This document shows, one piece after another, positions 24,449 to 27,898 of a stretch of 64,000 nt of DNA (the stretch's first letter is position 1; each line of letters begins with the position of its first letter). The stretch lies in the NCBI GenBank assembly GCA_947495915.1, contig CANMAW010000001.1:682001-746000 (forward strand). Direction: 5' to 3'. Source of the stretch: Maribacter algarum (ex Lu et al. 2025) (nom. illeg.). Its GTDB lineage: Bacteria > Bacteroidota > Bacteroidia > Flavobacteriales > Flavobacteriaceae. The position numbers and the translations under genes were made by a program. The notes under the pieces are model-generated. The model saw nothing but the letters and a program-made list of their open reading frames with translations. It was not told the origin of the DNA and searched no databases.

Positions 24449-25057
24449 ATGGCTTTTGAATTACCAAAATTACCTTATGCATATGATGCATTGGAACCAC
24501 ATATTGATGCTAGAACTATGGAGATTCACCATACAAAACATCACAACGGTTACACGACCAAGTTAAATGCTGCTATTGAAGGAACTGACTTGGCAGGAAA
24601 ATCTATTGAAGATATTTTAGCAAACCTTGATTTAGAAAATGGAGCAGTAAGAAATAATGGAGGCGGTTTTTATAACCATTCTCTATTTTGGAATGTCATG
24701 TCTGCTGACGGAGGTGGCGTTCCTTCTGGAGATTTGGCAGATGCTATTAATGATGCTTATGGATCGTTTGAAGCTTTCAAAGAAAAATTTAGCGCAGCAG
24801 CTGGCACAAGATTTGGCTCTGGTTGGGCATGGTTATGTGTACATGCTGGTGGAAAAGTTGAAGTCTGTTCAACTCCGAACCAAGACAACCCATTAATGCC
24901 AAGTGTAGGCTGTGGAGGAACTCCTATTCTAGGTTTAGATGTTTGGGAGCATGCCTATTATTTAAATTATCAAAATAGAAGACCTGATTATGTAAGTGCT
25001 TTTTTCAATGTAATTAATTGGGATAAAGTGGCAGAGCTATACGCAGCAAACAAGTAG
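24449..25057 (+). CDS. sodA: Superoxide dismutase, Mn-type signature
   Basis: A 202-residue Fe/Mn superoxide dismutase that turns superoxide into oxygen and peroxide. The four metal ligands are His27, His77, Asp164 and His168 (DVWEHAYY). The residues that separate Mn from Fe forms, Gly in NNGGGFYNH and Gln145 in TPNQDNPL, point to a manganese or cambialistic enzyme. There is no signal peptide, so it is cytoplasmic. The gene is single, with its own -7 box at 24408 and its own terminator at 25079. Confidence 0.96.
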
Positions 25058-25078
25058 TTAAAACAATTACAATATTTA

Positions 25079-25116
25079 AAAACATCCTACTTCATATGAA
25101 GTAGGATGTTTTTTTA
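25079..25116 (+). terminator. Terminator of sod
   Basis: A long near-perfect palindrome (arms 25081-25094 and 25097-25110) followed by a run of eight T, about 25 bp after the sod stop. Confidence 0.92.
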
Positions 25117-25130
25117 TGTCAATTTTTAAA

Positions 25131-25204
25131 ATAGAAAAGGGTAGAGAAGTCTCTACCCTTTTCGTCCCAAATCTTACCATAAACTTAACCTACTTATGCT
25201 ATGG
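25131..25204 (-). ncRNA. Candidate small RNA, copy A
   Basis: Read on the minus strand, a 40-nt core starts at 25204, followed by an intrinsic terminator (GGGTAGAG / CTCTACCC stem) with a weaker T run. Compared with the other copies the core has two changes. One turns CAUGG into UAUGG, which lengthens the 5' CCAUA/UAUGG pairing to five base pairs, so it supports a real stem. Predicted length is about 74 nt. Confidence 0.72.
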
Positions 25205-25209
25205 CAGCA

Positions 25210-25217
25210 CTAAATTA
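25210..25217 (-). promoter_or_regulatory. -7-like box of sRNA copy A
   Basis: TAATTTAG on the minus strand, one mismatch from TAnnTTTG, ends exactly five bases before the conserved core. Confidence 0.5.
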
Positions 25218-25335
25218 CTGGTATTGCGTTAAATAAAAAAGGAATTTTGGTATTTTTTAAGAGCTTTAGTAAACTGAAAAAAGTAAGATTTTACTCTAAA
25301 ATAGTCGCGACCTTGTAAATTGCTAAGGGTTTGAA

Positions 25336-25408
25336 ATAAAAAAGGCAGAGCTTAGCTCCACCTTTTTTCCCCAAATCTTACCATGAACTTAACCTACTTA
25401 TGCTATGG
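25336..25408 (-). ncRNA. Candidate small RNA, copy B
   Basis: The 40-nt core is identical to copies C and D. The terminator stem reads GGUGGAGC / GCUCUGCC on the minus strand and pairs fully with two G-U wobbles. On the plus strand the same positions would be A-C mismatches, so this copy shows that the minus strand is the RNA. A long T run follows. Confidence 0.78.
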
Positions 25409-25413
25409 TTCTT

Positions 25414-25421
25414 CAAAGATA
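25414..25421 (-). promoter_or_regulatory. -7 box of sRNA copy B
   Basis: TATCTTTG on the minus strand is a perfect TAnnTTTG match, five bases before the core. Confidence 0.62.
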
Positions 25422-25640
25422 TATTAACTAAACAGCGAATAAAAAGGTTTTGGTTGAATGTCTTTTTCTTTGGTTGAAATACCATTTCATAAAATTCAAT
25501 TCAATTTTTATATTGGTAAAATTCACGCCTTATTCAAGTTGACAGTGAAAGTTACAGACTATTTAGGGGCACAATTTAGTAGAAGGCAATTATGTTTCGT
25601 TGAAGATTCACTAACGTAGGTTAAAGTAAATAGGGTGTAA

Positions 25641-25710
25641 ATAAAAAGGCGGAGCATTGCTCCGCCTTTTCCCCAAATCTTACCATGAACTTAACCTACT
25701 TATGCTATGG
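25641..25710 (-). ncRNA. Candidate small RNA, copy C
   Basis: The same 40-nt core, followed by a perfect GGCGGAGC / GCTCCGCC stem with a three-base loop and a T run on the minus strand. Stem bases differ from copies A, B and D, but pairing is kept. Confidence 0.78.
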
Positions 25711-25715
25711 TTCTT

Positions 25716-25723
25716 CAAAAGTA
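25716..25723 (-). promoter_or_regulatory. -7 box of sRNA copy C
   Basis: TACTTTTG on the minus strand is a perfect TAnnTTTG match, five bases before the core. The five bases AAGAA are shared with copy B. Confidence 0.62.
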
Positions 25724-25821
25724 AATGAAGACTATGTGGTTTTAAAAATTCTTTGTTGAAGGGTTGAAATTTCGGTTAAAGTGTATTGGAGTTAGTTTTA
25801 AAGCTCCTCGCCAAATTAAAA

Positions 25822-25895
25822 AATAAAAAAGGTGGAGAAGTCTCCACCTTTTTTGCCCCAAATCTTACCATGAACTTAACCTACTTATGCTATGG
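25822..25895 (-). ncRNA. Candidate small RNA, copy D
   Basis: The same 40-nt core, followed by a GGTGGAG / CTCCACC stem and a long T run on the minus strand. It is the copy nearest to purF, whose stop is about 105 bp upstream on the same strand. Confidence 0.77.
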
Positions 25896-25900
25896 CGAAT

Positions 25901-25908
25901 CTAAAATA
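25901..25908 (-). promoter_or_regulatory. -7-like box of sRNA copy D
   Basis: TATTTTAG on the minus strand, one mismatch from TAnnTTTG, five bases before the core. Confidence 0.5.
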
Positions 25909-25952
25909 AGCGGGAAGCGGTCAAAGCGACTAAAAACACGCTAAATGGCACA

Positions 25953-25996
25953 TATTATCGACGAACAACACCCTTGAGTGCATTTGGTCGATAATA
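25953..25996 (-). other. Hairpin just after purF stop
   Basis: Arms TATTATCGAC (25953-25962) and GTCGATAATA (25987-25996) form a perfect 10-bp stem with a 24-base loop. There is no T run directly after it on the minus strand, so it may protect the purF mRNA end rather than terminate. Confidence 0.4.
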
Positions 25997-25999
25997 TTA

Positions 26000-27898
26000 T
26001 CAATATGCTCGCTCATTTTTGCCCTCATAAAAATTGATAAAGGCTCTGTTTACTACGCGGTTACCACCTGCAGTAGGATAATTTCCTGTAAAATACCAAT
26101 CACCTAAATTTTTAGGACATGCTTGGTGCAAGTTAGTAACCGTTTGATAAATTATTTCTACTTGGGCTTTTATACCTTTTGGGCTAAGTAATTCTCCACT
26201 TTTCTTAGAAATTTCGTCAGCTGTAAAAGGAGCATAAAATTCTTTTACGTAGTTTACAACTTTAGAATCTTTGGTGTTAACTTGTTGAAGGCATCTTTGG
26301 TAAATTTCCTCCACAATGTGCATTGTGCCCCTATCTTTATGTAAGGCTAATGCTGCTTTAAAAGCAATAAAATCTTCAAGCTTAGCCATGTCTATACCGT
26401 AGCAATCAGGGTATCTTATTTGTGGGGCCGAAGAAACAACAATAATTTTTTTAGGTGATAAGCGATCAAGAATTCTAAGAATGCTTTTCTTTAGTGTTGT
26501 ACCTCTTACAATGCTATCATCAATAATCACCAAATTATCACCTTTTTTAACTGAACCATAAGAAATGTCATAAACATGTGTTACAAGATCATCTCTGCTG
26601 CTATCTTGAGTTATAAAGGTTCTTAATTTAGCATCTTTAATAGCAACTTTTTCTATTCTTGGTCGAATAGCTAAGATTTCATGAAGTTCTTTACTGGTTA
26701 TTTTAGAACCAATTTCTAGAATTTGCTCCTCCTTTTTTTTGTTTAAATAATTCTGAGCTTCTTTTACCATTCCGAAAAAAGAAGTCTCAGCAGTATTTGG
26801 AATATAAGAGAAAACCGTATTCTTAATGTCATTATCAATTGCCTTTAGTATTTTAGGAAATATAAGTTTTCCTAATTCTTTTCGCTCTTGGTAAATTTCT
26901 TTATCGCTTCCGCGAGAAAAATAAATGCGTTCAAACGAACATGCTTTTCGCTCGGTGGGTTCTAAAACTTTTTTGAGAGCAGTAGTTCCATTTTTTTTAA
27001 TAATGAAAGCATGACCAGGGTCTAATTCATGAACGTCATTATAAGAAACATTAAAAACAGTTTGAATGGCAGGCCTTTCTGATGCTACCACTGCAACTTC
27101 ATCATCTTGGTAATAGTACGCAGGACGAATACCTGCAGGGTCTCTTAATACAAAGGCGTCGCCGTGACCAATAAGGCCAGCCATTGCATATCCACCATCA
27201 AAATTTTTCGCAGCTCTACGAAGTATTTTAGAAACTTTAAGTCGTTCAGCAATAATGGCAGAAGCTTCTCTTTTATTGTAACCTTCTTTTTTGATTTCTT
27301 TGTATAATTTTGCAACTGCATCATCTAAAAAGTGGCCAATTTTTTCCATTACCGTAACCGTGTCAGCCATTTCTTTAGGATGTTGCCCTAATTGTACCAA
27401 GTTGTCAAAAAGCTCATGTACATTGGTCATATTAAAATTACCAGCCATGATAAGGTTTCTATGCATCCAGTTGTTTTGACGTAAGAACGGATGCACACTT
27501 TCTATACTATTTTTGCCAAAAGTACCATAGCGAACATGCCCAAGAAGTAACTCACCGATGTACGGAATGTTCTTTTTTTGTAAAGCTACATTATCGACAT
27601 ATTCAGGATTTTTTTCAATCTCAGAATTTATTCGTTCGTTAATTTGGGCAAAAATATCTTGAATCGGTTGCTGTTCATTTGAGCGAACTCTACTCATATA
27701 ACGTTCACCGGCATTCATATCTAACTTAATACTGGCAAAACCTGCACCATCTTGACCTCGATTGTGCTGTTTTTCCATCATTAAATACATTTTATTAACA
27801 CCGTAAAATGCTGTACCATATTTTTCTTTATAATACTCTAACGGTTTTAACAATCGTATTACCGATATACCACATTCGTGTTTAATAGCGTCACTCAT
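26000..27898 (-). CDS. purF: Amidophosphoribosyltransferase (PurF family), long form
   Basis: A 632-residue glutamine PRPP amidotransferase, the first step of purine synthesis. It has an N-terminal class II glutaminase domain with the nucleophile at Cys9 (HECGISVI), so an eight-residue propeptide must be removed, and RGQDGAGF (47-54). The C-terminal phosphoribosyltransferase domain has the PRPP loop VIIDDSIVRGTT (457-468). It is about 130 residues longer than E. coli PurF, with extra sequence between the domains and at the C terminus; no Fe-S cysteines stand out. This long form is common in Bacteroidota and sometimes coexists with a shorter PurF. It follows a PfkB kinase gene and a terminator. 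Confidence 0.85.
   Translation of the reverse strand: MSDAIKHECGISVIRLLKPLEYYKEKYGTAFYGVNKMYLMMEKQHNRGQDGAGFASIKLDMNAGERYMSRVRSNEQQPIQDIFAQINERINSEIEKNPEYVDNVALQKKNIPYIGELLLGHVRYGTFGKNSIESVHPFLRQNNWMHRNLIMAGNFNMTNVHELFDNLVQLGQHPKEMADTVTVMEKIGHFLDDAVAKLYKEIKKEGYNKREASAIIAERLKVSKILRRAAKNFDGGYAMAGLIGHGDAFVLRDPAGIRPAYYYQDDEVAVVASERPAIQTVFNVSYNDVHELDPGHAFIIKKNGTTALKKVLEPTERKACSFERIYFSRGSDKEIYQERKELGKLIFPKILKAIDNDIKNTVFSYIPNTAETSFFGMVKEAQNYLNKKKEEQILEIGSKITSKELHEILAIRPRIEKVAIKDAKLRTFITQDSSRDDLVTHVYDISYGSVKKGDNLVIIDDSIVRGTTLKKSILRILDRLSPKKIIVVSSAPQIRYPDCYGIDMAKLEDFIAFKAALALHKDRGTMHIVEEIYQRCLQQVNTKDSKVVNYVKEFYAPFTADEISKKSGELLSPKGIKAQVEIIYQTVTNLHQACPKNLGDWYFTGNYPTAGGNRVVNRAFINFYEGKNERAY

Follow-up and report, generated by a model that had tools for sequence, protein, structure and literature searches.

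In Bacteroides thetaiotaomicron, the small RNA FopS (RF04319) acts by pairing and represses a SusC-type start, and the protein RbpB counters it (PMC11697453). FopS is a short, multi-copy sRNA, with 14 genes at many loci, in which a 5′ seed region is followed by a Rho-independent terminator. A second Bacteroidota sRNA, GibS, is encoded by a single gene and pairs through its 5′ seed around start codons (PMC7366714); it is related to FopS through the R1 seed (PMC11697453). Binding of one small RNA by another has been described for the pair CjNC140/CjNC110 of Campylobacter, an example among sRNA sponges and sRNA-sRNA pairs (PMC10470494). In flavobacteria, the Rfp sRNAs of Flavobacterium psychrophilum are independent small transcripts, and one of them, Rfp18, is among the few flavobacterial sRNAs with a known role (PMC9723704). 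Bacteroidota are said to be without classical sRNA chaperones (PMC11697453). Flavobacteriaceae are major degraders of polysaccharides in the sea and in soil.

We analysed a stretch of 64,000 nucleotides of Maribacter algarum (the window) in which four units of about 70 nt lie side by side on the minus strand, between two genes which we take to be sodA and purF, both named by sequence recognition (Table 1). The layout of the array resembles that of FopS, a short sRNA in several copies with a 5′ seed region (here putative) and then a terminator. In contrast to the dispersed FopS genes, the array is tandem at one locus, and where FopS has a protein antagonist, the array is accompanied in some genomes by an antisense partner element, and no RRM_1 protein was detected in the own genome. 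The putative 5′ seed is also a likeness to GibS, which differs in being a single gene. As in the CjNC140/CjNC110 pair, a small RNA is predicted to bind another small RNA, but here the predicted partner can form 24-34 pairs with the core, has a promoter-like block of its own at a locus unlinked to the array, and is opposed to a multi-copy array.

Table 1. Positions, in the window, of the array units, their promoter elements and the neighbouring genes
Feature	Position	Strand	Basis or detail
sRNA copy A	25135..25204	-	core 25165-25204, terminator T-run to 25135; 86.5 bits
sRNA copy B	25338..25408	-	core 25369-25408, terminator with G-U pairs; 97.5 bits
sRNA copy C	25643..25710	-	core 25671-25710; 90.9 bits
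sRNA copy D	25825..25895	-	core 25856-25895; 96.6 bits
-7 box TAATTTAG, copy A	25210..25217	-	sequence; kept over 14 A-class promoters
-7 box TATCTTTG, copy B	25414..25421	-	sequence; promoter alignment
-7 box TACTTTTG, copy C	25716..25723	-	sequence; promoter alignment
-7 box TATTTTAG, copy D	25901..25908	-	sequence; promoter alignment
Direct repeat TTCAACC (25478-25472) + TTCAAC (25458-25453), 20-bp period, upstream of copy B	25453..25478	-	column conservation, 33 B/C promoters of the genus
sodA-like superoxide dismutase, convergent neighbour	24449..25057	+	sequence recognition
purF-like amidophosphoribosyltransferase, upstream same-strand neighbour	26000..27898	-	sequence recognition

A preliminary description of the window, made without database searches, had claimed that each unit consists of a box, a core and a hairpin with a T-run on the minus strand, and reading and alignment of the sequences bore this out. 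The TAnnTTwG box ends exactly 5 nt ahead of the core in all four units, as it had stated, and the cores of copies B, C and D are identical over 40/40 nt, while copy A carries the two changes that had been reported (C24 to T and G40 to A). A search of the own genome at no more than 3 mismatches returned exactly these four copies, and the reversed control pattern returned none. The claim that the spacers are unrelated held only in part. When the 33 B/C promoters of the genus were aligned on the core, four elements proved to be common to them: TTyAACC at -70 and TTCAAC at -50, which form a direct repeat, a run of T around -38, and the box TAttTTTG, which spans -13 to -6. The distance from copy A to its neighbour was 203-206 bp in 14 genomes of the genus. 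The shared elements suggest that the B/C promoters may respond to a common activator, with TTCAACC/TTCAAC as its putative site.

The preliminary description had also noted that the hairpins differ in sequence and stay paired, with copy B pairing fully only on the minus strand through G-U wobbles, and had read this as selection for an RNA. Fold z-scores of the four units ranged from -2.7 to -4.1. On a separate subset of 34 units (32 of them distinct; alignment A6, in which a few rows are still misaligned), the terminator stems covaried, with double changes at 8 of the 12 pairs; these amounted to 25 cells against a shuffle mean of 4.9, and none of 500 shuffles reached as many. Read on the array strand, the terminator stems of 60 units from the 14 genomes of the genus contained 725 Watson-Crick pairs, 42 G-U pairs and only 4 A-C mismatches, so the wobble bias is not peculiar to copy B and the argument made from that copy can be extended. 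The description had also found no ATG frame of useful length in the core. All 12 named Flavobacterium loci that were read have a core without one A (GGTAGATTT), which shifts the only ATG frame and excludes a conserved peptide. The proposal that the core is single stranded could be neither shown nor excluded. A putative 5′ stem within it, CCAUAGC/GUU.AUGG, is paired in 97.9% of cells over 107 distinct rows, and no double change was found among those rows. Such a stem is possible, and neither a single-stranded nor a folded core is established. Because the near-invariant core, the covariation in the terminator, the strand bias and the synteny agree, the sRNA reading, including its multi-copy nature, is strongly supported by comparison. 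There are no transcript data; with that reservation, the units are very probably real, widespread and apparently unnamed tandem sRNA genes.

By BLAST, all 14 genomes of the genus carry the array. Copy number is roughly three to six per genome, and the copies are for the most part tandem, some of them on broken contigs. The combination of C24T with a GGGAC linker was found in one copy per genome in 14 of 14, which indicates that the copies have separate identities. Two side observations concern additional copies. In three genomes (G009, G006 and G008), an extra array-type copy lies on a separate contig (L043, G009:C35; L044, G006:C80; L045, G008:C5); all three have a GACAGGGG..CCCTGTC hairpin and appear to be one orthologous copy. 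In G227 (L062, 816-1171 and around), several tandem units of about 150 bp lie between array copies and keep ACCATTTGGGG and a copy-C-type hairpin without the 5′ part of the core; these could be a local amplification or decayed copies.

To follow the array beyond the genus, a covariance model (R1) was built from 42 units; of the possible stems it contains the 5′ one only, since the terminators of two copy classes had been misaligned by MAFFT. With matches accepted up to an E-value of 1e-3, the family was detected in 241 of 299 sampled Flavobacteriaceae genomes, 83 of which have at least three copies. A sample of the order (296 genomes) gave 45 matches at E up to 0.01, and 41 of these were in the own family. 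One of the latter (G186) is a weak, false-looking match and the four matches in other families are also weak; the core was absent from all five sequences when they were read. An exact-pattern scan of named genomes returned at least 117 stretches, with Zobellia, Maribacter, Flavobacterium, Cellulophaga, Winogradskyella, Aquimarina and others among the carriers. These genera all belong to the Flavobacteriaceae; other entries are uncultured or unclassified Flavobacteriaceae, Bacteroidetes or Bacteroidota. Among 53 array loci drawn from the top-scoring matches, both purF and sodA were present within about 3 kb around 47, one of the two around 5, and neither around 1. As regards a phage origin, AAGTAGGTTAAGTTYATGGT had no exact match in any viral contig. 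What comparison shows is a near-invariant core of 39-40 nt and, behind it, a terminator that covaries, both on one strand and present in much of the Flavobacteriaceae.

The units had been called unrecognised, with Flavo-1 suggested as a possible match. Against Rfam 15, no family, Flavo-1 included, reached its gathering score anywhere in the window, so that the first statement holds for Rfam and the suggestion of Flavo-1, as curated, failed. Near-matches to BTnc231 (33.2 bits), STnc40 (33.2 bits) and sraA (31.1 bits) were all far below gathering and were rejected; the STnc40 and sraA alignments rest mainly on the terminator. One proviso is that FopS is a plausible remote relative. The highest score of its model in the array was 19.9 bits, at copy D, where 56 would be needed for gathering; genome-wide it passed in none of 27 genomes and did not pick out the arrays among the matches examined, and its best match in the own genome (22.4 bits) is on a contig other than that of the array. 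The core and FopS have UUCAUGGUA(..)AGAUUU in common, and their alignment was equalled by 40 of 2000 shuffles and by 14 of 300 dinucleotide shuffles.

An intermediate was found in G325, an order-mate from another family with several dispersed FopS-like matches. Five of these were read (L283-L287, 28-40 bits), and four have TTCATAGTAAGATTTTGGGTTAGTTTA and the terminator in common. The FopS consensus and one G325 copy can be aligned along 30 nt, and 1 of 2000 shuffles did equally well. The array core is identical to three G325 copies at 17 of 19 positions (0, 4 and 1 of 2000 shuffles as good) and is only weakly similar to a fourth (70 of 2000 shuffles), and for the Flavobacterium-type core similarity to the G325 copies was not beyond chance. 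We conclude that the array family and FopS are likely to share a common descent, which is not the same as membership of one family. As an observation apart, the G325 FopS-like sRNAs, which fall below the Rfam threshold, are candidates to extend RF04319.

The FopS antagonist RbpB, which binds FopS, is an RRM_1 protein (PF00076). No protein of this class was detected in the own genome, and 289 of the 299 genomes sampled from the family were likewise negative; the control Bacteroides was positive. None of the ten RRM_1-positive family genomes is among the 44 that carry the partner element described below. Another protein could still fill the role of RbpB.

The array family was not described in any title or abstract opening in the open-access literature that we searched (flavobacterial, Zobellia, F. 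johnsoniae and Bacteroidetes sRNA or sponge topics). The main text of the Rfp paper (PMC9723704; its tables were not covered) contains no occurrence of purF, superoxide, amidophosphoribosyl or sod, and neither a tandem family nor an antisense partner was found in its relevant passages. It is possible that one of Rfp1-89 is a homologue of the array family.

The preliminary description had proposed that the RNAs act on mRNAs or sponge a protein. This can be refined, as an element nearly complementary to the core was found in trans. BLAST with copy C returned a second match of about 30-37 nt in 8 of the 14 genus genomes (in the own genome at G000:C8:52333-52367); model R2 added the partner in G010 and G012, and the remaining four genus genomes were outside the R2 search. 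Read on its own strand, the element consists of a T-run, CATcTTTr, five bases, CCAAATCTTACC-(AA)-ACTTAACCTACTTAATGCTA, and a hairpin with a T-run, so laid out that the predicted RNA begins opposite the 3′ end of the core. The promoter-like block, aligned over 37 sequences, has the T-run, the box and the 5-nt spacing of the array promoters; the box itself, CATcTTTg, deviates from TAnnTTTG. The same 37 partner promoters (for example L035 4262-4300, plus strand) also show strong conservation of TTAGCATACAAAAA at about -70 and of CTTGACAACT at about -50, from which a site for an unidentified regulator can be inferred.

The predicted duplex between core and partner was evaluated on alignment A4 (42 rows), in which L132 repeats the own copy and L140:1583 is a false match (-14.2 kcal/mol). 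Of the other 40 rows, 39 were scored and L161, which lacks the anchor, was left out. The 39 duplexes ranged from -25.7 to -49.5 kcal/mol with 25-34 pairs (median 31), against a null with mean -12.2 and sd 3.0, and for each of them none of 5000 controls was as low. Eighteen further partner hits, which cover the remaining positive genomes (and include four G141 copies that are among the 39), gave 24-33 pairs, in each case with 0 of 500 own shuffles as good. In contrast, the duplexes at five sub-threshold places (L177-L181, two of which are second places in positive genomes) were not special, being matched by 12-208 of 500 own shuffles, and the promoter-plus-complement block was present in none of them. 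At least two core bases remain unpaired inside the duplex in 39 of 39 scored copies, and an extra A-A mismatch occurs in the own species and in many others. The core is more strictly conserved than the partner. The idea that the partner avoids AUG was abandoned: an AUG is present further along in most partners, and in L139 one lies in the middle of the duplex.

The partner was found in 44 of 299 family genomes (R2, E below 1e-6). This cut-off was set after the list had been seen, and another 51 genomes, whose E values went up to 0.01, were left uncounted. A set of 25 genomes, selected because their cores are altered or because they branch more deeply, gave only noise-level matches to the partner, the three best of which were read. 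At 58 partner loci, a count that includes a few false ones, yidC is nearby in 44, and at least one of yidC, a fasciclin-domain gene and mnmA is present in 52. The array has at least three copies in each of the 44 genomes with the partner, compared with 39 of the 197 other array-positive genomes (relatedness uncorrected); conversely, 44 of the 83 genomes with at least three copies carry the partner. The partner hairpin covaries, with double changes at 8 of 11 pairs (false row included). On the partner strand, 40 hairpins contain 23 A-C mismatches against 12 G-U pairs; because the A-C mismatches are in excess, the hairpin was probably selected also, or mainly, as the terminator of the convergent gene. 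In G141 (L162, G141:C9:57000-61000, about 1720-2500), four tandem partner units with a period of about 197 bp lie beside yidC, each with a promoter block and a hairpin; the T-runs are 6-7 long in the three units that do not adjoin yidC and 3 in the yidC-proximal one. The partner is likely to be a separate antisense RNA; for its transcription, in the absence of expression data, promoter-like and terminator signals are the only support.

No mRNA target was established by any of the searches made. When 20-nt sites around ATG were searched for core complementarity with three mismatches in 14 genomes, we recovered the arrays and 10 other sites, against 10 in the reversed control. One site, AACTTACCATGAACTGAATC, lies three mismatches from the core complement in two species (G001:C15:22834-22853 and G013:C2:921319-921338, both minus strand) and, from sequence alone, could be a conserved pairing site. 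A purN-like start (window 30184, minus strand) carries CCAAATCTATTCATGAA, whose complementarity to the core is in start-codon register; of the 90 starts scored in the own genome, this one ranked first (-23.0). We rejected purN as a conserved target, as the in-register pattern (at most 1 mismatch) is missing there in the other 13 genus genomes. A looser in-register pattern in the 14 genomes gave about the control level, apart from purN in the own species only. Among the same 90 starts, 18 SusC-size genes (over 800 aa) lay at -2.0 kcal/mol relative to shuffled cores and the 72 others at -0.7, a trend only (Mann-Whitney p 0.07), computed and not assayed. Parts of two genomes (640 and 619 predicted genes) were also screened together; they gave 351 reciprocal best hits, of which 292 ortholog pairs with matching starts were kept and 59 dropped. 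Nineteen pairs reach -18 kcal/mol in both species. With 60 shuffles of each kind, this number was matched by 5 composition shuffles and by 6 that kept the seed, so that the true core outdoes shuffled ones by a slight margin at most. This two-species screen was not significant, and even the strongest of six measures (the 10th-best pair) was matched by 3 of the composition shuffles and 8 of the seed-kept ones, again out of 60 each. In the top-ranked pair (L440:7879), the start of the gene resembles a signal peptide, and CCAAATC-ATGAAA is present in both species.

We propose that the four units are separately transcribed copies of one trans-acting sRNA of about 70 nt. The UUCAUGGUAAGAUUUGGGG half of the core would be a FopS-like seed that pairs around the start codons of targets and blocks translation, and several copies, each with its own promoter, would raise the dose. 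A second sRNA of about 64 nt, usually near yidC and with its own promoter, may pair with the core and titrate the array RNAs; this step is inferred from the sequence and would be limited to a subset of the genomes with at least three array copies (44 of 83). There the partner RNA would fill the antagonist role that the protein RbpB has for FopS in Bacteroides. The unpaired core bases may, speculatively, keep the duplex from being one long RNase III substrate. In the absence of transcript data for either RNA and of an mRNA target, the full mechanism, start-site repression together with an RNA sponge, has our preference by a modest margin. In a bolder reading, the array is a family-wide riboregulator of FopS stock whose protein antagonist RbpB was replaced by a "mirror" sRNA, antisense and encoded in trans, which arose only in genomes whose array grew to at least three tandem copies; this would make an all-RNA dose-buffering circuit. 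We regard this second version as less likely than not.

Several alternatives were considered. The roles might be reversed, the yidC-side RNA being the regulator and the tandem array its sponge: complementarity is symmetric, high copy number fits a sponge, and the core has no established mRNA target. Against this, the array is present in 241 of 299 genomes and the partner in just 44, always together with the array; a sponge would not be expected to persist without its prey in the other 197 genomes; and conservation is stricter in the core than in the partner. We regard role reversal as unlikely. Also unlikely is that the array RNAs are sRNAs and the yidC-side element is no antisense gene, only the terminator of the neighbour followed by core-like sequence in the core sense. 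The preference of the hairpin for the opposite strand (23 A-C against 12 G-U in 40 hairpins) and the non-consensus box speak for it, but against it stand the promoter-like block conserved on the partner side in 37 sequences and the four tandem units of G141, with T-runs of 6-7 in the three away from yidC and 3 in the yidC-proximal one. A third possibility is that the core is a decoy RNA that binds a protein or the ribosome and is not a base-pairing regulator. Near-total conservation of 39 nt exceeds the need of a short seed, and no target is established; however, the partner element is shaped for pairing with the core, and the core resembles FopS, a pairing sRNA (PMC11697453), so that this explanation too is improbable. 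The last alternative is that the core encodes a conserved small peptide (M-V-R-F-G...) or that the two elements form a pair resembling a type I toxin-antitoxin system, for which an ATG frame in the core (ATGGTAAGATTTGGGG) and the antisense element could be cited. It is all but ruled out, since one A is missing inside that frame in 12 of 12 named Flavobacterium loci and the frame enters the terminator with a different end in each copy.

Under the preferred reading, a pairing sRNA with an RNA sponge in some genomes, a near-invariant sRNA, usually at one fixed locus, with a predicted antagonist in some genomes offers an entry point, and the model is open to testing in genera that can be cultured and have the array, such as Zobellia, Maribacter and Flavobacterium. 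If the sponge proves true, the protein that antagonises FopS would have a counterpart made of RNA, which would help to explain how Bacteroidota handle multi-copy sRNAs without an RRM protein.

Two further inverted repeats flank the array. The first, long and imperfect (ATAATATTATCGACCAAATG...GTTCGTCGATAATATG on the minus strand, window 25951-26000), directly follows purF and lies upstream of copy D in most genomes of the genus; it may be the purF terminator or a regulator site. The second, a perfect inverted repeat (AACATCCTACTTCATATGAAGTAGGATGTT, window 25078-25115), lies between sodA and copy A and is probably the sodA terminator.
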